64,000 nt of DNA from [Mycobacterium] zoologicum (GTDB taxonomy: Bacteria > Actinomycetota > Actinomycetes > Mycobacteriales > Mycobacteriaceae). Positions 1 through 20,198 of the stretch are shown piece by piece (position 1 is the first letter of the stretch; every line of letters starts with the position of its first letter). The stretch is taken from positions 3,800,711 through 3,864,710 of the forward strand of contig NZ_CP083985.1 in NCBI RefSeq assembly GCF_020172665.1, written 5' to 3'. The notes below the pieces were generated by a model. That model had not been told where the DNA came from. It made no database searches and saw only the letters and a program-made list of their open reading frames with translations. Both the position numbers and the translations under genes were made by a program.

Positions 1-1210
1 CGCCGGCCTGCTCACGCCGGTAGTCGTCCACCCAGTCGCCCACCACCTTGTGCAGGTGGCGCACCAGGATCTCTTGATCGTTGAGTGGGAAGTCGTCGAC
101 TATGCCGTATTCCAGCGCGGCCTGGGTGCCGCCGAGCATCCCGGCGTCTTGCAGCGCAAACTCCTTGAGCACCACCGACGCCACCTCGTGCTCGATGCGC
201 TCGCGCACCGTGCGGGCGGGATGGAAGTAGGTGTGGGCCTCGAACCGGTGGGTGTTGTGCGAGGTGGGCCAGTACCGGTAGAGCAGGTACCAGCCGCCGT
301 AGATGAGGATCTCGGTGTTGGGGAAGATCTGGAAGTTGCTGATCCCCCACGGTTCGATGCCGCCCGGATTCACCCCGGCCGGCAGCTCGCCGATGTCGGG
401 CGTCTCCCACGGGCCGACCAGCCCGCTGCGGGTAGCCCGCTCGATGGGGTACATGTACTCCGGGGGCAGCAGCCATCGGCGTCGGCCGGCGGTCGAGACC
501 AATCGGTGCGGCCCGTCGAGTTGGAAATGGCCGCAGGTGAATCCGGCGTCGGGCACCCGGACTTGGGCCGGCACCTGTTGGGAATGCAATGCCGGAACGT
601 GGTAGTACTCCTGAAACGCGTCGGCGAAGATCTTCCAGTTGCTGTTGTTGTGGGCCACCCAGTCGTAGCGTTCGGTCAGCTTCTCGAACGGGTAGCCGTC
701 GAGGCCGGTGATCATCGGCCCGAGAAACTCGCGCAGGCTCTGGCGCGGTTCGGTGTCGAGGTTGACGAAGACGAATCCGTTCCAGATGTCGCAGTGCACC
801 GGCATCAGGTCCGCGGTGTCGGCACCGTCACGCGTTCGGCGGCAACGCCTGCAGGTGATCACCTCGACCTGCCCGGCGGTCTCACGATCGGGAAACTCAT
901 GCCAGACGAGCTTGCTTGCGCACCGCGGGCAGACGTTGTGGAAGGCCCGGATTCCCTGGCCGGTGTGGATGAGAAGCACCGACGACCGGGCGACTTCGAT
1001 CTCCTTGGTGGCATAGCTGCCGGGTTCGGGCACCTCCTCGATGCGGCCGATGTTGAGCCAGGCGCGCTTGAACACCGCGTCGCGCTCGAGTTCGAAGAAC
1101 TCACGCGATGTGGAGTCGGCGAAGGAGACCGGGCCGGTTCCCAATTCATAGTGCTCGGTCCACGAGCCCTCGGCGGGCCGGCCGGATCGCTTCGAAGGTT
1201 GTTCTGTCAC
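1..1210 (-). CDS. Rieske-type oxygenase alpha-subunit paralogue with Cys4 site (3' end outside window)
   Basis: Aromatic-ring-hydroxylating-type oxygenase alpha subunit. It is close in sequence to the paralogue at 4111-5376 (shared KLVW, FVFVN-type, NSNWK and QE(Y/F)YH stretches). Translation from GTG 1210 gives 403 residues and is still open at base 1. The C-terminal mononuclear-iron motif HxxxxH is present (H204, H209). The N-terminal Rieske site is not: instead of CxH...CxxH the protein reads C94-P-R-C97 and C120-R-R-C123, and about 17 residues that follow the second ligand pair in the paralogue are missing, including its aromatic segment. I infer a rubredoxin- or zinc-ribbon-like Cys4 centre, or a protein that no longer relays electrons. 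The GTG overlaps the stop of the SDR upstream (GTGA), so translation is probably coupled. The substrate is unknown. Confidence 0.85.
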   Translation of the reverse strand, partial: MTEQPSKRSGRPAEGSWTEHYELGTGPVSFADSTSREFFELERDAVFKRAWLNIGRIEEVPEPGSYATKEIEVARSSVLLIHTGQGIRAFHNVCPRCASKLVWHEFPDRETAGQVEVITCRRCRRTRDGADTADLMPVHCDIWNGFVFVNLDTEPRQSLREFLGPMITGLDGYPFEKLTERYDWVAHNNSNWKIFADAFQEYYHVPALHSQQVPAQVRVPDAGFTCGHFQLDGPHRLVSTAGRRRWLLPPEYMYPIERATRSGLVGPWETPDIGELPAGVNPGGIEPWGISNFQIFPNTEILIYGGWYLLYRYWPTSHNTHRFEAHTYFHPARTVRERIEHEVASVVLKEFALQDAGMLGGTQAALEYGIVDDFPLNDQEILVRHLHKVVGDWVDDYRREQAG

Positions 1211-1968
1211 AACACCGCCCCTCCGTTGACACCGAGTACCTGACCGGTGATGAAACCGGCTTCCTCCGAGCACAAGAACCCGACTGCCGCGGCGATGTCC
1301 GAGGCCGTGCCCAGCCGGCCCATCGGGATGTTGGCGGCGATCTGCTCGTTCGGCGGCAGGTATCCGGCCGCCTGGCCCTGGTGCTGCATGGGCGTCTCGA
1401 TACCCGACGGCGGAATGTTGTTGACCGTGATGCCTTGGGCGGCGTATTCGCGGGCCAGTGATTTGGTCAAGGTGATGACAGCGCCTTTGGACGCGGCGTA
1501 GTGCGCGGCGAACGGCGATCCGCGCTGGGCGCTGGACGAAGAGATCATCACGATGCGCCCCCACCCGGCGGCGACCATGTCCGGTAGCGCGGCCTGGCAG
1601 CAGTGGAAGGTGCCGGTCAGGTTGACGTCGATGATCCGGGCCCAGTCCTCGGCAGTGATATCGGCGAAGGCGCAGTAGCCGAAGAGTCCGGCGCTGGTGA
1701 CCAGCGCGGCGACCAGGCCGAGATCGCGGCGCACGTGCTCGAAGGCCTCGTCGACGGCGGCCCGATCGGTGACGTCGGCCTCGACACCCAGCGCGGTGCC
1801 GCCCCGGCTCCGCACGTCGTCGGCAACCCGTTGCGCGGCTTGGCCATTGAGGTCGAGAACGGCGACGCGATAGCCGCGCCGGCCCAGTTCGTGACAGGTG
1901 GCCTCGCCCATGCCCGAGCCCCCACCGGTGACCACGGCAACCCGCTGCGGCACCTCTGTGGTCATCAC
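1207..1968 (-). CDS. short-chain dehydrogenase/reductase (SDR)
   Basis: Classical 253-residue SDR, NAD(P)-dependent. Seen: N-terminal TGGGSGMGEA cofactor loop, an acidic residue after strand 2 (AVLDLNG, which favours NAD), the catalytic Ser in ISSSSAQRG, YxxxK as YAASK, and a C-terminal TGQVLGVNGG stretch. It is the first gene of a two-gene unit with the Cys4 oxygenase, whose GTG overlaps its stop codon. A CAAGT-type inverted repeat lies about 30 bp upstream of the start. Role inferred from context: oxidation of a hydroxylated or diol intermediate made by the island's oxygenases. ATG is followed at once by a second ATG, so the start is uncertain by one codon. Confidence 0.9.
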   Translation of the reverse strand: MMTTEVPQRVAVVTGGGSGMGEATCHELGRRGYRVAVLDLNGQAAQRVADDVRSRGGTALGVEADVTDRAAVDEAFEHVRRDLGLVAALVTSAGLFGYCAFADITAEDWARIIDVNLTGTFHCCQAALPDMVAAGWGRIVMISSSSAQRGSPFAAHYAASKGAVITLTKSLAREYAAQGITVNNIPPSGIETPMQHQGQAAGYLPPNEQIAANIPMGRLGTASDIAAAVGFLCSEEAGFITGQVLGVNGGAVL

Positions 1969-2051: not shown

Positions 2052-2504
2052 TCAGGGCTCCACGTGGTCGGCGAACAGGGTGTGCCCGGTGCCCTGCTCG
2101 ACGACCCGGGCCAGCAGCGCTCGCAGCGTGTCCTGCTCCTGCGGGCTCAACACACCGAACACCTGCTCGTGGACGGTGATCGCGTCGGTGACGACCGCCG
2201 AGGTCACCGCGCGCCCCTCGTCGGTCAGGTGCGCCCGCAGGATACGGCCGTGGTGGGGGTCCGGCTTGCGCTCCACCAGTCCGCGGCGCTCCAGCGCACT
2301 CAGGGCCAGTTGCACGCCCTGCGGAGTGATGAGCAGCCGACGTGCCAGCTCAGCGCCGGACAGACCCGGTTCGCCGGCGAGTTGGCGCAACAGACCGATC
2401 TGGGCGGTACTCACCCCGTGCTCGCTGATCGCCTCGTTGACGGTGGTCAGCGAATAGTAGAAGGCCTGCTTGAGCAGCCACAGGATGTTGTTGGTGAGAT
2501 CCAT
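2052..2504 (-). CDS. MarR-family transcriptional regulator
   Basis: About 150-residue winged-helix MarR protein. Seen: a helix-rich N-terminus (NNILWLLKQAFYYSLTTVNEAI), a wHTH region with recognition helix around TPQGVQLALSALERRGLVER, a beta wing with the family's D..HGR..RA..LT pattern (DPHHGRILRAHLTDEG), and a C-terminal dimerisation helix. ATG 2504 is preferred because GGGAGG precedes it by 6 nt; a TTG at 2522 would overlap the amidohydrolase stop. It is the last gene of the oxygenase/small protein/amidohydrolase unit. MarR proteins usually repress their own operon and respond to aromatic or phenolic ligands. Both CAAGTA-type sites in the island are plausible targets, which would make it a local catabolic repressor. 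Confidence 0.9.
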   Translation of the reverse strand: MDLTNNILWLLKQAFYYSLTTVNEAISEHGVSTAQIGLLRQLAGEPGLSGAELARRLLITPQGVQLALSALERRGLVERKPDPHHGRILRAHLTDEGRAVTSAVVTDAITVHEQVFGVLSPQEQDTLRALLARVVEQGTGHTLFADHVEP

Positions 2505-2518
2505 GTCCCGCCTCCCGG

Positions 2519-3778
2519 TCAACTGCGTTTGTAGACTCGGCCGTCCTTCATGACAAATCGCACGTCACAGGTGGTGCCGATGTCGCGGGTCGGGTCACCC
2601 GGTACGGCGATGACATCGGCGCAGTAGCCCGGCGCCAGGCGTCCCAGTTCGTGGCCGGCGTCGATGAGATCGGCACTGACGACGGTGGCCGCCCGCAGTG
2701 CCTGCACCGGTGTCATACCGCGCTCCACCAGGGCGCACAACTCCTTGGCGTTCTGCCCGTGCGGGATCGCCGGCGCGTCGGTGCCGCACGCGATGCGCAC
2801 CCCGGCCTCGATCGCCCGGGGCAACATGGCTTTGGCCCGCGGAAACACCTCGGCCGCCTTCTTGCGCAGCTCCGGAGCGATCCGGTCGACGGCCAGGGCG
2901 TCCGTCAGGTAGGTGGTGGAGACCAGGAAGGTGCCGTGGTCGACCATCATCGCCAGCGTCTCGTCGGTGGCCAGGAAACCGTGCTCGATGCAGTCGATGC
3001 CCGCGCGGATGCACGCCCGAATCGCGGTGTCGCCGATGGCATGTGCGGCCACCCGCACCCCGGCGCGATGCGCCTCGTCGGCGATTGCGGCCAGTTCGGC
3101 GTCGGAGTACTGCTGGGCGCCCGGGGCGGTGCTGTGCGACATCACCCCGCCGGAGGCCGACACCTTGATCAGCTTGGCGCCGTGGCGGATCTGATAGCGC
3201 ACGCAGGCGGTCACATCCGGCACCCCGTTGGCGATGCCCTCGGCGACCGACAGCGGCATCACGCCGGGCGCGAGCCGTTGGAAGACCGTCGGATCCAGGT
3301 GGCCGCCGTAGGGCGTGACGGCATGGCCGGCGGGGTAGATCCGCGGACCCGCGTGCCAGCCCTGATCGACGGCGCGCTGCAGTGCGACATCAAGCAGATA
3401 GCCACCGGTCTTGACCATCAGCCCCAGGTTGCGGACGGTGGTGAAGCCGGCTTCCAGTGTGGTGCGTGCGTTGACCGCGGCCCGCAACGTGCGGTAGACG
3501 GGGTCGTCCTGCACACCGTGCAGCGGCGTCGGAAGCCCTTCGGGACTTCCCGGCCCGCCGATGAGCAGGTTGAGCTCCATGTCCATCAGCCCGGGCAGCA
3601 GCGTGACGTCGCCGAGGTCGATGTCGTCAGACGAAACCGGAACGGGCGCAGCGGGGTTGACGGCGGTGATGCGGCCGTCCTCGATCACCACGACGGCGGG
3701 TGACCGCACCACACCGGCATCGATGTCGAGCCACCGATCGGCGCGCAGCACCGAGATCTGACTCACCTGGCGGCTCAC
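2519..3778 (-). CDS. amidohydrolase-superfamily protein lacking the HxH metal motif
   Basis: TIM-barrel amidohydrolase of the imidazolonepropionase/Xaa-Pro-dipeptidase-like type, about 419 residues. Seen: an N-terminal beta-sandwich (VVIEDGRITAV), a strand-1 segment LPGLMDMELNLL, a probable carboxylated Lys in LIKVSASGG, metal His in AAHAIGD and CIEHG, the barrel-end Asp in CGTDAP, and a C-terminal sandwich (GYCADVIAV...VMKDGRVYK). In active members strand 1 reads DxHxH; here those two His are Glu68 and Asn70, so the metal site must be altered. GTG 3778 is chosen because it overlaps the upstream stop (GTGA); GTG 3799 and 3766 are alternatives. It probably hydrolyses an amide or lactone-type intermediate of the island's pathway, but activity is uncertain given the missing ligands. 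Confidence 0.85.
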   Translation of the reverse strand: MSRQVSQISVLRADRWLDIDAGVVRSPAVVVIEDGRITAVNPAAPVPVSSDDIDLGDVTLLPGLMDMELNLLIGGPGSPEGLPTPLHGVQDDPVYRTLRAAVNARTTLEAGFTTVRNLGLMVKTGGYLLDVALQRAVDQGWHAGPRIYPAGHAVTPYGGHLDPTVFQRLAPGVMPLSVAEGIANGVPDVTACVRYQIRHGAKLIKVSASGGVMSHSTAPGAQQYSDAELAAIADEAHRAGVRVAAHAIGDTAIRACIRAGIDCIEHGFLATDETLAMMVDHGTFLVSTTYLTDALAVDRIAPELRKKAAEVFPRAKAMLPRAIEAGVRIACGTDAPAIPHGQNAKELCALVERGMTPVQALRAATVVSADLIDAGHELGRLAPGYCADVIAVPGDPTRDIGTTCDVRFVMKDGRVYKRS

Positions 3779-4104
3779 GGGAACGGCTCGGCGATGCACT
3801 CGATGACGGCCCCGCCGGAGTCGGGAACGCGCGGCTGCTTCCAGGCTTCGGCCGGGAAGGCCACCGTGATCATGGAGTACAGCAAGTGCATCAGGTTCAG
3901 CACGTCCTCGGGCATGTCGTCGAGGCTGAACTTGTCGCAGTAGGCCAGCGCATCTTCGGCGCGCGCCGTGATGGCGTCGTAGAACGCCTGCATCTCCGAC
4001 ATCGAACTGCTCAGGCGCTTGGCGTAGCGCTCCGGTTCAGACGGCAGGCACCACTGGCCGAACGGCTCGAGGTCGGCGAATTCCTTTGGCAGCATGGCGG
4101 TCAC
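3775..4104 (-). CDS. small protein of unknown function in oxygenase operon
   Basis: 109-residue acidic soluble protein that I do not recognise. Seen: mostly helical composition, a central segment rich in Met, Leu and Asp (LDDMPEDVLNLMHLLYSMITVAF), two non-paired Cys, no signal peptide and no metal motif. It starts 6 nt after the oxygenase stop, and its own stop overlaps the GTG of the amidohydrolase, so it is tightly embedded and likely co-translated. It is not a canonical ring-hydroxylating beta subunit, which is longer and has an NTF2-like fold. It could be an oxygenase accessory or a small subunit; this is speculation from position only. Confidence 0.75.
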   Translation of the reverse strand: MTAMLPKEFADLEPFGQWCLPSEPERYAKRLSSSMSEMQAFYDAITARAEDALAYCDKFSLDDMPEDVLNLMHLLYSMITVAFPAEAWKQPRVPDSGGAVIECIAEPFP

Positions 4105-4110
4105 GGTCCG

Positions 4111-5376
4111 TCAGACCTCTGCCGTAGCGCGCTCGTGTTCGGCTATCCACGCGGCGGTCTCGGCGTGAAAGTGCCGGATCAGCACCTCTTGGTCGTTGAG
4201 CAGGAAGTTGTCCACCACGCCCGTGCCGATCATCGTGTGGGTGGCCTCCAAGGTGCTGGCGTCCTGCAGCCCGTACTCCTTGAACGACACCGCCGCCAGT
4301 TCCTGGGCGACCCGCTCGCGGGGAGTCCGCGGCTGCGGAAAGTACAGCGTGCCTTCGAAAATGTGCGAGTCGTGCGCGGTCGGCCAGTAGTGGTAGGTCA
4401 GATACCAGCCCTGGCCCCAGAACAGGATGGTGAAGTTGGGGAAGATCTGAAACGAGTCCAACCCCCACGGAACGCATTTCGCGGGATTGAGGCCGGCTGG
4501 CATCGGGCCGATATCCGGCGGGTCCCACGGCCCGAAAAGCCCGCTCCGGCAGATGTCCTCGATCGGCTTGCGCATCTCCGACGCCATCTCCCAAGCCCGC
4601 ACGCCCGAGGTGCTGACCAGGCGATGCGGGCCCTCGATCCGGTAGTGCGGCGCCTCGAAGCCGGCCTGTTCGGCCGCCACCCGAAAGGCCGTCGGCGTCT
4701 GGTTCCCATGCAGTACCGGCGCGTGATAGAACTCCTGGAAGGCGTCCAAGAAGAGCTTCCAGTTGGAGTTGACCGACGAGCGGTACTGCCACCGCGACGT
4801 CAGCTGCCCGAATGGGTAGCCCTCCAACGCCGTGACCATCGGCCCGAGGAATTCGCGCAGAGACTGCTCGGGAGTGGCGGAGAAGTTGACGAAGATGAAC
4901 CCTTCCCAGACTTCACAGTGCACGGCGACCAACCCGTAGCGGCTCTTGTCCAAGTCGAAGAACTCTTCCTGCTGCGGGACAAAATCCAAATTGCCATCCA
5001 GGTCGTAGCGCCAGGCGTGGTACTTGCAGGTGAACTGGCGACAGTTCCCGCTCGCCTCCTCCAATGGCATGGTGTCCCACACCAACTTGTTCCCGCGGTG
5101 CCGACAGACATTGTGATAGGCCTTGATCTCGCCGGATCCGGTTCGCACCAGGATGATCGAGGTGTTGACCACCTTGAGTTCCCGGGTGAAGTAGCTGCCC
5201 TTCCGCGGAATCTGCTCTACCCGACCGACATTCAGCCAGGCACGCCGGAAGATCGCCGCGCGCTCCTTCTCGTAGACATCCGGGCTGACGGAATCGCGGT
5301 ACGACACCGGTTCGGTACCGAGCTCGGGGTAGTGCTGGGTCCAACTACCCTCGGGCGGCTTCGGAAAACGCGCCAC
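4111..5376 (-). CDS. Rieske [2Fe-2S] ring-hydroxylating oxygenase alpha subunit
   Basis: About 421 residues. Seen: a canonical Rieske motif C-R-H-R-G (C91, H93) and C-K-Y-H-A-W (C117, H120), then the catalytic-domain NSNWK and FYHAPVLH segments that supply the two His of the mononuclear iron. Known for the family: electrons pass from a reductase via the Rieske cluster of one subunit to the mononuclear iron of its neighbour in a trimer, for O2-dependent hydroxylation. No reductase or ferredoxin gene is visible in this island. GTG 5376 is preferred because AGGAG precedes it by 5 nt; GTG 5394 also fits the frame. It heads a four-gene unit (oxygenase, small protein, amidohydrolase, MarR) with a 17-bp operator-like inverted repeat upstream. 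Confidence 0.92.
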   Translation of the reverse strand: MARFPKPPEGSWTQHYPELGTEPVSYRDSVSPDVYEKERAAIFRRAWLNVGRVEQIPRKGSYFTRELKVVNTSIILVRTGSGEIKAYHNVCRHRGNKLVWDTMPLEEASGNCRQFTCKYHAWRYDLDGNLDFVPQQEEFFDLDKSRYGLVAVHCEVWEGFIFVNFSATPEQSLREFLGPMVTALEGYPFGQLTSRWQYRSSVNSNWKLFLDAFQEFYHAPVLHGNQTPTAFRVAAEQAGFEAPHYRIEGPHRLVSTSGVRAWEMASEMRKPIEDICRSGLFGPWDPPDIGPMPAGLNPAKCVPWGLDSFQIFPNFTILFWGQGWYLTYHYWPTAHDSHIFEGTLYFPQPRTPRERVAQELAAVSFKEYGLQDASTLEATHTMIGTGVVDNFLLNDQEVLIRHFHAETAAWIAEHERATAEV

Positions 5377-5438
5377 AACCACTCCTGTCCTCACGCCGGG
5401 TCACTGGCGCCGACGCTATCGAGCGGCACCTTTAGTGT

Positions 5439-16401: not shown

Positions 16402-18057
16402 TCAGGCGATGTCGGCGGCCGCGGTACGCCCGGCGGCGCGACCGGAGAAGATGCAGCCCCCCAGGAACGTGCCCTCCAGCGCCCGGTAGCCGTGCACCCC
16501 GCCGCCGCCGAAACCGGCCACCTCACCGGCGGCATAGAGCCCGTCGATCGGTTTGCCGTCACCGCCCAGCACTCGGGCGCCGAGGTCGGTCTCCAAGCCC
16601 CCCAGCGTCTTACGGGTCAGGATGTGCAACTTGACCGCGATCAGCGGGCCGGCCTTGGGATCGGTCAGCCGGTGCGGCGCCACCACCCGGCCCAGCCGGT
16701 CGCCCAGGTAGGCCCGGGCACCGCGGATGGCGGTGATCTGGCCGTCCTTGCTGAATCGGTTGGCCACCTCGCGATCGCGCGCGGTGACCTCCGCCTCGAC
16801 CGTCGCATAATCCAGCGGCGCCACCTCGGGCAGGTCGTTCATCGCCGCGACCAGTTCGCGCAGTGAATCGGCCCGCACGAAGTCCACACCGCGCTCGACG
16901 AACGCCTGCACCGGCGGCGGCGGGCCCTTGCGTGCCCGCGACGCGATCAGCTGTTTCAGGCTGCGCCCGGTCAGATCCGGGTTCTGCTCCTGGCCGGACA
17001 ACGCGAATTCCTTCTCGATGATCTTCGCGTTGAGCACGAACCAGGTGTAGTCGTACCCGGAGCGGGCGATGTGCTCGAGGGTGCCCAGGGTGTCGAAACC
17101 GGGATACAGCGGCCCGGGCAGTCTTGTGCCGGCGGCATCCAGCCACAGCGGCGACGGGCCCGGAATGATCCGGATGCCGTGGCCCGGCCAGATCGGGTCG
17201 TAGTTGGTGATGCCCTCGGTGTAGTGCCACATCCGGTCGCGGTTGATCACCCGGCCGCCGGCCGCCTCGGTGATCCCGATCATCCGGCCGTCGACGTGAG
17301 CCGGCACCCCCGCCAGCAGCTGCGACGGCACCCGGCCCATGCGTTCCGGCCAGTTCTGCCGCACCAGATCGAGGTTGCCGCCGATACCACCACTGGTCAC
17401 CAGCACCGCAGACGCACGGAACTCGAACTCGCCCATCGTGTTCCGCGACGATGCGACTCCGCGCGGCGCGTCGCTGGGTTCCAGCACGGCGCCGCGCACC
17501 CCGGTCGCCCGGCCACCCTCGATAATCAATTCGTCCACCCGGTGGCGGTGCACGAAACGGACTTTCGGGTGCTCGCGCAGTCGGCTCGCGAACATCTCCA
17601 CCAGGGCGGGGCCGGTCCCCCAGGTGATGTGGAACCTGGGCACCGAGTTGCCGTGCCCGATCGCGCCGTAGCCGCCGCGCTCGGCCCAGCCGACCAGTGG
17701 GAACACCTTCAGTCCGCGGGCGGCCAGCCAACTGCGCTTCTCGCCCGCGGCGAAGTCGACGTAGGCGTGCGCCCACTGCCGCGGCCAGTGATCTTCGGCC
17801 CGGTCGAAGCCGGCGGTGCCCAGCCAATCCTGCAGCGCCAGTTCGTGACTGTCGCGCACCCCAAGCCGGCGCTGCTCGGGGCTGTCGACGAAGAACAGGC
17901 CGCCGAAGGACCAGAACGCCTGCCCGCCCAGGTTCGCGCTGTTCTCCTGGTCGAGGATCAGCACCTGCCGGCCGCGATCGGCCAGTTCGCACGCCGCCAC
18001 CAGGCCGGCCAGACCCGCACCGACGACGATCGCATCGGCATCCGCGCTACCGCTCAT
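16402..18057 (-). CDS. FAD-dependent dehydrogenase (KstD/fumarate-reductase-like, Rv0785-like)
   Basis: About 551 residues. Seen: N-terminal FAD Rossmann motif AIVVGAGLAGLVAACELAD, an Asp for the ribose (ILDQENSANLGGQAFWSFGG), VLVTSGGIGGNL, and the C-terminal FAD-closing GLYAAGEVAGFGGGGVHGYRALEG. This is the class of succinate-dehydrogenase-like flavoproteins annotated in mycobacteria as FAD-binding dehydrogenase (Rv0785) and related to 3-ketosteroid dehydrogenases. The reaction is probably a C-C dehydrogenation of a lipid-like substrate; the specific substrate is unknown. ATG 18057 is chosen because homologues begin just before the FAD motif; GTG 18084 would overlap the upstream gene by 8 nt. 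Confidence 0.88.
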   Translation of the reverse strand: MSGSADADAIVVGAGLAGLVAACELADRGRQVLILDQENSANLGGQAFWSFGGLFFVDSPEQRRLGVRDSHELALQDWLGTAGFDRAEDHWPRQWAHAYVDFAAGEKRSWLAARGLKVFPLVGWAERGGYGAIGHGNSVPRFHITWGTGPALVEMFASRLREHPKVRFVHRHRVDELIIEGGRATGVRGAVLEPSDAPRGVASSRNTMGEFEFRASAVLVTSGGIGGNLDLVRQNWPERMGRVPSQLLAGVPAHVDGRMIGITEAAGGRVINRDRMWHYTEGITNYDPIWPGHGIRIIPGPSPLWLDAAGTRLPGPLYPGFDTLGTLEHIARSGYDYTWFVLNAKIIEKEFALSGQEQNPDLTGRSLKQLIASRARKGPPPPVQAFVERGVDFVRADSLRELVAAMNDLPEVAPLDYATVEAEVTARDREVANRFSKDGQITAIRGARAYLGDRLGRVVAPHRLTDPKAGPLIAVKLHILTRKTLGGLETDLGARVLGGDGKPIDGLYAAGEVAGFGGGGVHGYRALEGTFLGGCIFSGRAAGRTAAADIA

Positions 18058-18076
18058 GGCGGTTAACCGTAACGGG

Positions 18077-18790
18077 TCAGGCACTGAGCCCGGTGGTCAC
18101 CTCCGTCGGGGTCGTGGGCCAGCGGTAGCGCTCCGGCCGGCAGCCGTGCTCCAGGGCGGTGTCCACTGCGTCGACCATGGCCGCGGCCACCCCGCGGTCG
18201 CCGAGCTGACGCGCCCCCACCGACAGTCGCACTTTTCCGCCGCGCCGGGCGATGCGTTCGCTGGTCGTCACCACCATCCGGCACCACCAGGGCGCCTTCG
18301 GGAAACCGGCTCCGATGCCGACCACCCGGGACCGCTCGGTGCTGCCGGTCACCAGATCGGTCACCCCGTGCAGGCCGGCGAGTAACCGGAATCCGTTGCG
18401 GGGCAATGCAGTCACAGTCCCCGCAGACACCGTCCAGCCGGGCGCGGCGAACAGCCTGGTCCGCAGCCCCAGGTGTTCGAGTACCCGGTCGGCGCCGAGC
18501 AGCCGCAGGTTCGCCTCGTGGGCGGGCAGCGTGGCGAATTCGCCGCGGCGTTTCTTGGTGGCGGCCTCGTCGAAGCCGTGCAGCACGATCGCCGCGCCGC
18601 CGGCCCGCCGCTGCCGCAGCCAGTCGCTGGTGCCCGCGTCGCGGTCCAGCCGGTAGTCCGCGCCCAGTCGCGGCGCCACCAGCAATGACACCGGCACCCC
18701 GCGGGCGTCCAGCTGTGCGCAGAACGCCTCGGCGTCGGCGCAGCTGCGCGCCTCGATCCCGGAGACGGAGACGATCAGTTGTCCGGTCAC
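18077..18790 (-). CDS. polysaccharide-deacetylase-like protein (DUF2334 type, Rv0784-like)
   Basis: 237 residues. Seen: LIVSVSGIE at the N-terminus, VPVSLLVAPRLG, AIVLHGFDEA (a typical NodB-fold metal-His position), FAAPGWTVSAGT, and LSVGARQLGDRG. This arrangement fits the DUF2334 branch of the polysaccharide deacetylase superfamily, in which a metal ion is held by Asp and His on the barrel. No clear signal peptide, so the substrate may be cytosolic. It lies in the same orientation just upstream of the FAD dehydrogenase (stop 20 nt before its ATG), as Rv0784/Rv0785 do. Enzymatic activity unproven. Confidence 0.75.
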   Translation of the reverse strand: MTGQLIVSVSGIEARSCADAEAFCAQLDARGVPVSLLVAPRLGADYRLDRDAGTSDWLRQRRAGGAAIVLHGFDEAATKKRRGEFATLPAHEANLRLLGADRVLEHLGLRTRLFAAPGWTVSAGTVTALPRNGFRLLAGLHGVTDLVTGSTERSRVVGIGAGFPKAPWWCRMVVTTSERIARRGGKVRLSVGARQLGDRGVAAAMVDAVDTALEHGCRPERYRWPTTPTEVTTGLSA

Positions 18791-18851
18791 GTCACCAGTG
18801 TGGCGACCGCAGGTGTCCGGCCGGTGACATCGAGGAAGACGTCAGACAGCG

Positions 18852-20198
18852 CTACGGGGTCAACCGACGACGGTTGCTGTGATCGGCCGGGTCGGTGCTG
18901 TTGGCGGCGATCGCACGCAGTCTCATCAGGTCCCGCGGATGCAGATCCGGCGTCTTGGCAAGGGATTCCAGCAGCAGATCGGCCTGCTCACGCAGCGCCG
19001 GAACATATTCATTCCGGTCTTCTTCCTGGACGCGGGCGATCAGCATCCGCAATACCCGCAGGATCGTAGCCGCCACCAGCGGTTGCCCGGGCGCGACCTG
19101 GCGCAGCTGATCGAAGCCGTGCGCGATGTACTCCTCGGCGTCAAGTACCCAGGGCCGCAACAGAATCCGACCGTCCGGGCCGGCCACCGCCCGCAGCGGC
19201 GAAGGCATCACCAGCAGCCGGCGAAGCAGACTGCCCACTCGCAATGTCGCCTCCACCGCGGTGGTGGGGTCGTTGATGGCCGAACTCAGCGCGCGCAGCC
19301 CGATGTCGACCAGTTGACGGAACGCGAAGTCGATATCCTCCTGCATGGTGCGGCTGCCGCTGACCCCGATCGCCCGGGTCAGCTTCTGCCGCACCCGATC
19401 CGGATGAGCCGGCTCCGGCCAGATCGTGACCAGCGGTTGCCCCAGGTGGATGTACGCGCCGACTCGGGTGTCCAACCGGATGGTGGTGTCCGCCGGGATG
19501 GCGGCCAGCAGCCGCTTGGTGTCGACCCGGCTGACCCAGCCGTTGCCGGGCGAGGTCAGTCGCAGCGCATCCGGCGGGGCCTCCACGTCCGCGTCGGGGG
19601 CCGGCTGCTCGCCGGCCGCTGCGGCCGCCACGACATCGATCACCATCGAGCCCTCCGCCGCGATCTCGCGCACCACCTGGCCGACCTCGAGCCGATGCGC
19701 CAGGTGATCGACGTGGGCGATGATCGTGATGACGGTGGCGATGGTCAGCACGACCGCGACCGTGACCGTCACCGGCGGCGCGGGAGCCGGTGAGGAGCCG
19801 TCCAGATCCGGCAGGCTCAGCACGCAGTACACGAACGTCGCCACCAGCAGGCCGATCACCACCTGGCTGAGCCGGTCCCGGATGAACCAGCGCATCACCC
19901 GCGGCGATAGCTGTGAGCTGGCCAGCTGCAGGCTCACGATGGTCAGCGAGAAGATGACTCCCGCGGTGGTGATCGTGGCACCGGCGATGGTGGACAGCAG
20001 CGTGGTGGCGACGCCGCTGTCCATCTTCAGCAGCAGCCGCGGCGAATCACCGAGGCGCCGGTCCGCGGTACGGGACGCGACGGCCAGCAGCATGCCACCG
20101 CACACGATCAGCAGCGGCAGCAGAAACAGGCTCTCGCGGAACCGGTAGGCCAGCGCCAACGAGCGCACGCTCGGGAAGCGCTGCGAGCGGGTACGCAT
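18852..20198 (-). CDS. DUF2254-family membrane protein
   Basis: About 448 residues. Seen: four N-terminal membrane helices (LFLLPLLIVCGGMLLAVA; a TTLLSTIAGATITTAGVIFSL-type helix; VVIGLLVATFVYCVLSL; VTVTVAVVLTIATVITIIAHV), then a soluble C-terminal half with VRVDTK-like and RTMQEDIDFAFRQLVDIGLRALS motifs and a helical tail. This is the usual DUF2254 layout, function unknown, with conserved AINDPTTA-type sequence. Its ATG shares one base with the stop of the glutathione-peroxidase-like gene (TGATG), so translation is coupled. It is likely part of the purC-ptrB-gpx-DUF2254 transcript. Confidence 0.88.
   Translation of the reverse strand: MRTRSQRFPSVRSLALAYRFRESLFLLPLLIVCGGMLLAVASRTADRRLGDSPRLLLKMDSGVATTLLSTIAGATITTAGVIFSLTIVSLQLASSQLSPRVMRWFIRDRLSQVVIGLLVATFVYCVLSLPDLDGSSPAPAPPVTVTVAVVLTIATVITIIAHVDHLAHRLEVGQVVREIAAEGSMVIDVVAAAAAGEQPAPDADVEAPPDALRLTSPGNGWVSRVDTKRLLAAIPADTTIRLDTRVGAYIHLGQPLVTIWPEPAHPDRVRQKLTRAIGVSGSRTMQEDIDFAFRQLVDIGLRALSSAINDPTTAVEATLRVGSLLRRLLVMPSPLRAVAGPDGRILLRPWVLDAEEYIAHGFDQLRQVAPGQPLVAATILRVLRMLIARVQEEDRNEYVPALREQADLLLESLAKTPDLHPRDLMRLRAIAANSTDPADHSNRRRLTP

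Follow-up and report, generated by a model that had tools for sequence, protein, structure and literature searches.

A Rieske oxygenase alpha subunit without its Rieske ligands, kept beside a canonical sister subunit in mycobacteria, may be reduced by that sister

CntA and Stc2 are quaternary-ammonium Rieske monooxygenases, and in the CntA homotrimer every subunit has a Rieske cluster of its own. The distance from this cluster to the catalytic iron is 44 Å in cis and 12.2 Å across the subunit interface, and mutants of the glutamate E205 are inactive (PMC7948474). Both the CntA work and a review from 2025 describe electrons as passing from the Rieske cluster of one alpha subunit to the iron of the next. 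Here, a 64,000-nucleotide stretch of the [Mycobacterium] zoologicum genome (GCF_020172665.1, contig NZ_CP083985.1, positions 3,800,711 to 3,864,710; hereafter the window) was analysed for an alpha subunit that, in contrast to CntA, lacks the Rieske ligand set. Its minus-strand gene (2-1210) is termed alpha2, and its canonical paralogue (4111-5394) is termed alpha1. We favour, at a probability of roughly 0.55, a reading in which alpha2 still works in catalysis, within a Rieske oxygenase built from two kinds of alpha subunit, but has given up its own [2Fe-2S] cluster, and in which the Rieske cluster of alpha1 would feed the alpha2 iron within a mixed ring.

Among described systems, NdmC of the NdmCDE complex for caffeine N-demethylation resembles alpha2, as the latter is read from its sequence, in being a catalytic subunit without a Rieske cluster, and its electrons are believed to come from an additional Rieske cluster on its partner NdmD (PMC4408171). 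In NdmCDE, however, the reductase NdmD has taken over the Rieske domain, whereas alpha2 retains the module, refitted with other ligands, and a sister alpha subunit is proposed as the donor. Two alpha-type subunits are known in one enzyme from NdmA/NdmB, an alpha3alpha'3 assembly (PMC12445004), but these differ from alpha1 and alpha2 in that neither lacks a Rieske cluster and each has its own N-methyl specificity (PMC4408171). As for the cluster itself, the Sulfolobus ferredoxin ARF yielded a low-potential 3Cys-1His [2Fe-2S] centre in its H64C variant and a rubredoxin-like Fe(Cys)4 site in its H44I/K45C/H64C variant, while H44C failed (PMC2946596). By our own reading of the motif register, ARF positions 44, 45 and 64 would correspond to alpha2 positions 96, 97 and 123, so that like changes appear at corresponding positions; the ARF variants are nonetheless an engineered ferredoxin, whereas alpha2 is a natural oxygenase subunit. 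Rubredoxins and zinc ribbons also share two CxxC knuckles with alpha2, which bears them within a remnant Rieske domain. No description of a Rieske-less alpha subunit paired with a canonical one, or of this operon, was found in the titles and abstract openings listed, mostly outside subscription journals.

Alpha1 and alpha2 are 49% identical, and in their BLASTP alignment the motifs CRHR and CKYH of alpha1 stand opposite CPRC and CRRC of alpha2, with a 17-residue gap directly after the second pair. A first-pass annotation, made from the sequence alone, had already pointed to these two CxxC pairs, to a segment about 17 residues shorter behind them and to a retained HxxxxH (H204/H209), and all of this was borne out. 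It had further proposed that both Rieske histidines were lost and two cysteines gained at matched positions. The histidines are indeed gone and His123 has become Cys, but His96 is replaced by Arg and the second new cysteine, Cys97, is the residue adjoining it; both Rieske cysteines (94 and 120) are kept. The full-length protein has 408 residues (P0002; open reading frame 17695-19275 of locus L086), its reading frame extending 17 bases beyond the window edge. Pfam identifies it as an alpha subunit by the PF00848 catalytic domain (169 bits, E 1.6e-49), while the Rieske domain PF00355 reaches 12.4 bits, under the cut-off of 20.3 and compared with 59.4 bits for alpha1, and the CxH...CxxH ligand pattern is missing. 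Zn_ribbon_IS1595 was seen at a sub-threshold 11.1 bits (Pfam), and Zn_ribbon_4 matched one of the 57 members of A1, a set mixing intact and broken alpha2 (best E 0.0014). The predicted structure of alpha2 has a mean predicted local distance difference test score (pLDDT) of 63.8; ten-residue blocks of the module (residues 51-160) score 78-92 while the catalytic domain is mostly poor, and the 50 PDB matches listed for it are all Rieske oxygenases.

Relatives were gathered from 5.8 billion proteins, of which the search listed the best 120, and from genome contigs, whose scan kept the best 80 loci, with the loci of named genomes, L006-L085, being read around alpha2; further loci came from 401 genomes of the same family, 59 of which had an alpha2 match at E 1e-130. 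The resulting sample of alpha2 relatives is skewed towards the query's own kin. After removal of repeats, it comprised 231 distinct alpha2 sequences, 118 without His123 (here called broken) and 113 intact, and clade trees were built without the residues of the Rieske module. The clade of the window protein contains 45 rows that reduce to 40 distinct sequences, and its named members are Mycolicibacter or Mycobacterium species. Conservation of the four cysteines among homologues had been put forward in the first-pass annotation as a check on its claim, and the two CxxC knuckles, of the kind found in rubredoxins and zinc ribbons, are present in all 40. Sequencing error was rejected as an explanation on the basis of this conservation and of synonymous TGC/TGT variation at each of the four Cys codons (13 loci). 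Within the clade, 24 of the 65 module positions are invariant, and all four cysteines would be among them by chance with p ~0.016; this is modest evidence, and conservation of the catalytic site together with the constant company of alpha1 carries more weight.

The catalytic half of alpha2 is kept throughout. Bridging Glu201, the iron ligands His204 and His209, and Asp355, the carboxylate iron ligand in this family, occur in every one of the 231 distinct alpha2, whether broken or intact, such that both the iron site and the bridging carboxylate persist where the Rieske ligands do not. The same four residues are found in 112 of 113 alpha1 sequences, the remaining one having a gap at Asp355. Upon hidden Markov model alignment to CntA, alpha2 Glu201 falls on the bridging glutamate, and the mixed-ring reading is favoured mainly because a glutamate known to accept electrons from a neighbour's Rieske cluster has been kept in a subunit that lacks a cluster. 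The pooled ratio of nonsynonymous to synonymous substitution rates (dN/dS) tells of the same domain: in broken alpha2 it is 0.078 for the CxxC/CxxC group (n=13) and 0.060 for the CRRCC group (n=9), compared with 0.075 (n=6) and 0.053 (n=9) for the alpha1 of the respective groups and 0.051 (n=35) for intact alpha2. Over the Rieske region, the values are 0.224 (CxxC/CxxC) and 0.214 (CRRCC) for broken alpha2, 0.087 for intact alpha2, and 0.074 and 0.079 for the corresponding alpha1. The alpha2 catalytic domain is as constrained as that of alpha1, and the alpha2 Rieske region is relaxed.

A further line of evidence is the company that alpha2 keeps. With identical sequences counted once and fragments of less than 330 residues left out, 110 loci hold both alphas, no two pairs being identical, and in all 110 the two genes lie on one strand; the first-pass annotation had also proposed examining synteny with a canonical paralogue. 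Loci showing alpha2 alone are cut by a contig or stretch end, or have alpha1 only as a fragment. The pairing is kept over Mycobacteriaceae, Gordonia, Nocardia and Williamsia loci, and the operon predates the change of Rieske ligands. Both subunits are canonical in 84 of the 110 pairs (one alpha1 reading CRHH), alpha2 is broken in 25, alpha1 in 1 and both in none. The lone alpha1-broken pair, from Williamsia (L141, alpha1 at 2696-4021), has a canonical alpha2; its alpha1 is identical to P0139, and the source record is flagged for unverified contamination. A second Williamsia alpha1 in the protein records, P0141, has GKRS in place of CKYH and thereby lost Cys120 and His123, and a canonical alpha2 (P0131) is, from record data, putatively of the same genome. 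The canonical ligand set is present in 118 of the 120 alpha1-like proteins listed. As controls, third-type paralogues were canonical in 19 of 19 cases (stretches of about 2.8-3 kb), as was one alpha1-like gene with no alpha2 in its 16-kb stretch. One such third paralogue with canonical ligands lies at L087:6161-7555 (genome C1:3741277-3742527), and this type is also found in mycobacterial genomes without an alpha2 match at E 1e-130.

In the favoured reading, alpha1 and alpha2 would join head to tail as members of a single ring, most plausibly at two alpha1 per alpha2, and the alpha1 Rieske cluster would reduce the mononuclear iron of the neighbouring alpha2 by way of Glu201, much like E205 of CntA. 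The old Rieske module would stay on as an assembly domain, and in Mycolicibacter Cys94, Cys97, Cys120 and Cys123 may hold it in place through a single tetrahedral Zn or Fe. At the sequence level, a rubredoxin-like Fe(Cys)4 and a Zn site look alike. The mixed ring, its stoichiometry and the bound metal are proposed from sequence and analogy. What is observed is that alpha2 has neither the Rieske ligands of an ordinary alpha subunit nor the extra-Rieske reductase of the NdmC type; the one operon reductase scanned, that of L016 (6145-7233), has FAD, NAD and plant-type Fer2 domains and no Rieske domain. Mixed trimers with the canonical paralogue, and the view that the ligand change is "not random decay", had both been offered in the first-pass annotation. 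Both are supported, short of proof, by the conserved pairing, by the invariant catalytic residues and bridging glutamate, and by an intact alpha1 in 25 of 25 alpha2-broken pairs. Beyond that annotation, the analysis brought out a 3Cys-1His set in the wider clade, the reciprocal case in which alpha1 is the broken subunit, and the lack of the operon reductase in CxxC/CxxC loci.

The ligand change itself can be followed along a ladder in the tree, from P0042 (CRHRGH/CKHC) to P0041 (CRHGGH/CKQC), then to P0038, P0039 and P0047 (CRRxGH/CxRC), and finally to the CPxC/CxRC clade, with node support of 57 to 96 and a single node at only 57. The likely path would begin with His123 becoming Cys to give a 3Cys-1His set, after which a stand-in His would have appeared at 99, His96 been lost and Cys97 arisen last. 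Both Cys120 and Cys123 are kept in 107 of the 118 broken alpha2, and every one of these carries an additional Cys or His within the first knuckle, namely Cys97 in 40, His96 in 29, His96 together with His99 in 9, and His99 in 28, with the fourth ligand of the remaining one, P0033, found only by reading across a one-residue gap. His99 is present in none of the 113 intact alpha2.

Several observations weigh against a Rieske-less catalytic partner in a mixed ring. Double losses are expected in only ~0.2 pairs (25 x 1 / 110), and so the finding that the two subunits are never both broken is without statistical power. An approximately unbiased test does not reject a single clade uniting every alpha2 that lacks His123 (p 0.878; P0062 left out), so the 25 alpha2-broken pairs are not independent cases; the unconstrained tree has 5 changes for the loss of His123, with multiple independent origins not demonstrated. 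An independent-pair test of His96 loss versus His99 gain gave 2 supported pairs and was not significant. Moreover, 11 of the 118 broken alpha2 have a residue other than Cys at 120 or 123, which means that the metal is not needed everywhere, and two are without any first-knuckle ligand. A match to the operon reductase, scored anywhere in the locus stretch, is absent from 12 of 12 CxxC/CxxC loci; the remaining broken loci have it in 20 of 20 cases and the intact ones in 79 of 91. The closest match in the window's genome is 46% identical and ~42 kb away; the system may therefore use another reductase in these lineages or be less active there. Finally, a three-membered ring cannot alternate, and some iron sites next to alpha2 would thus get no electrons.

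Other explanations need to be weighed against this one. It is possible, although unlikely, that alpha2 keeps another redox centre that still passes electrons, a 3Cys-1His [2Fe-2S] cluster in the wider clade and Fe(Cys)4 in Mycolicibacter. The natural alpha2 proteins use motif positions matching the ARF variants (PMC2946596), and the Pfam Rieske domain was still seen at E 0.01 in 43 of the 57 A1 members, but the relaxed Rieske region and, in the window's clade, the shortened loop after the second knuckle count against it. His96 is also gone from many 3-Cys sequences (the 28 of 107 with His99 only), and the CxxC/CxxC clade has no Rieske His with which to contact the bridging glutamate. A bolder form of this idea, that Mycolicibacter alpha2 is a natural Rieske-to-rubredoxin conversion, reached by way of 3Cys-1His as in the ARF steps, with an Fe(Cys)4 site that stays redox-active and hands electrons on to the iron of the adjoining subunit, is by analogy conceivable but doubtful. 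Somewhere between these two in likelihood, and unlikely as well, is a structural or regulatory alpha2 whose iron site serves only for folding or substrate sensing, a role that the first-pass annotation had raised as a structural subunit. Such a role would account for the missing cis cluster and for the further loss of knuckle ligands in some alpha2; it would not readily account for four invariant iron-path residues, including the glutamate that functions in electron transfer in CntA, or for a catalytic dN/dS resembling that of alpha1, and a catalytic role is the likelier one.

The precedent of NdmCDE raises the prospect of an alpha2 homotrimer served by a separate Rieske protein, as NdmC is by NdmD. 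This is improbable, as the L016 reductase carries Fer2 rather than a Rieske domain and has no match in Mycolicibacter loci, and no separate Rieske gene was found among the operon genes scanned, a scan that did not extend genome-wide. Least probable of all is plain decay, in which these lineages are losing the operon and the cysteines arose by accident. Relaxation of the Rieske region and the missing reductase match in the CxxC/CxxC loci are what decay would produce, yet the four cysteines persist in every distinct clade member, the catalytic domain remains at a dN/dS of 0.06-0.08, and alpha1 is constrained.

The genes around the two alphas (Table 1) have a usual order in mycobacteria and Gordonia of alpha1-s1-amidohydrolase-MarR-(reductase)-SDR-alpha2-s2-TauD, where SDR denotes a short-chain dehydrogenase, and a second locus group (g23) has SDR-alpha2-s2-TauD-alpha1-s1-amidohydrolase. 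The window interval 1968-2052 is where L016 has its reductase gene, and L007 has AveC-like and TetR genes between MarR and SDR. Small proteins s1 and s2 were matched 135 and 139 times, respectively, across 141 loci, and in the window's genome the s2 start overlaps the alpha2 stop by four bases. That each alpha is trailed by a small protein of its own suggests duplication of an alpha-s module. At one locus, L171 (genome G259), there are three genes resembling alpha, and a small-protein copy comes after each. The s1 model (L006 copy) has a pLDDT of 85; s1 had no Pfam or NCBIfam match, its model had no Foldseek match at E 0.001, and the L016 s2 protein had no Pfam match and no sequence match in PDB. 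The s1/s2 family is probably an accessory subunit of this oxygenase group that has so far gone unrecognised. As for the substrate, a PaaE/GbcB-like reductase and a CntA-like fold suggest, by analogy, a quaternary-ammonium or N-alkyl compound.

Table 1. Features of the two-alpha operon, in window coordinates except where a locus is named
Feature	Position	Strand	Basis or remark
alpha2, alpha subunit of Rieske-oxygenase type that lacks the Rieske ligand set	2..1210	-	PF00848 E 1.6e-49; 403 of 408 codons in window
Asp355 of alpha2	146..148	-	carboxylate iron ligand by its family role; conserved
Bridging Glu201 and iron ligands His204, His209 of alpha2	584..610	-	Glu201 aligns with CntA E205; His204/His209 at 584-601
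Shortened, fast-evolving loop after second knuckle, residues 124-137	800..841	-	dN/dS 0.49
Second knuckle C120-R-R-C123 (alpha1: CKYH)	842..853	-	both Cys in 40/40 distinct clade members
First knuckle C94-P-R-C97 (alpha1: CRHR)	920..931	-	both Cys in 40/40 distinct clade members
Short-chain dehydrogenase (SDR)	1207..1968	-	domain scan; synteny
MarR-type regulator	2052..2522	-	domain scan; synteny
Amidohydrolase	2519..3799	-	domain scan; synteny
s1, small four-helix protein after alpha1, 109 residues	3775..4104	-	paralogue s2 after alpha2
alpha1, canonical alpha subunit and proposed source of electrons for alpha2	4111..5394	-	PF00355 59.4 bits; PF00848
Rieske knuckles CRHR, CKYH of alpha1	5017..5106	-	alignment
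s2, s1 paralogue after alpha2, just outside window	L086:17363-17698	-	s1/s2 matching across loci

Evolution appears to have divided the roles of donor and acceptor between two sister subunits encoded in the same operon, and to have done so in either direction, with alpha2 losing its ligands in mycobacteria and alpha1 in Williamsia. As judged from its sequence relatives and from described systems, alpha2 is a catalytic subunit that has lost its Rieske centre, with its sister subunit as the most likely source of electrons. This would make the enzyme a new form of Rieske oxygenase, similar to NdmC but with the module kept and given other ligands. Such a split makes the rule of electron transfer between subunits testable with natural proteins. 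Moreover, the family offers natural intermediates of a change in iron-sulfur ligands, from 2Cys-2His through 3Cys-1His and three cysteines with a shifted histidine to 4Cys.
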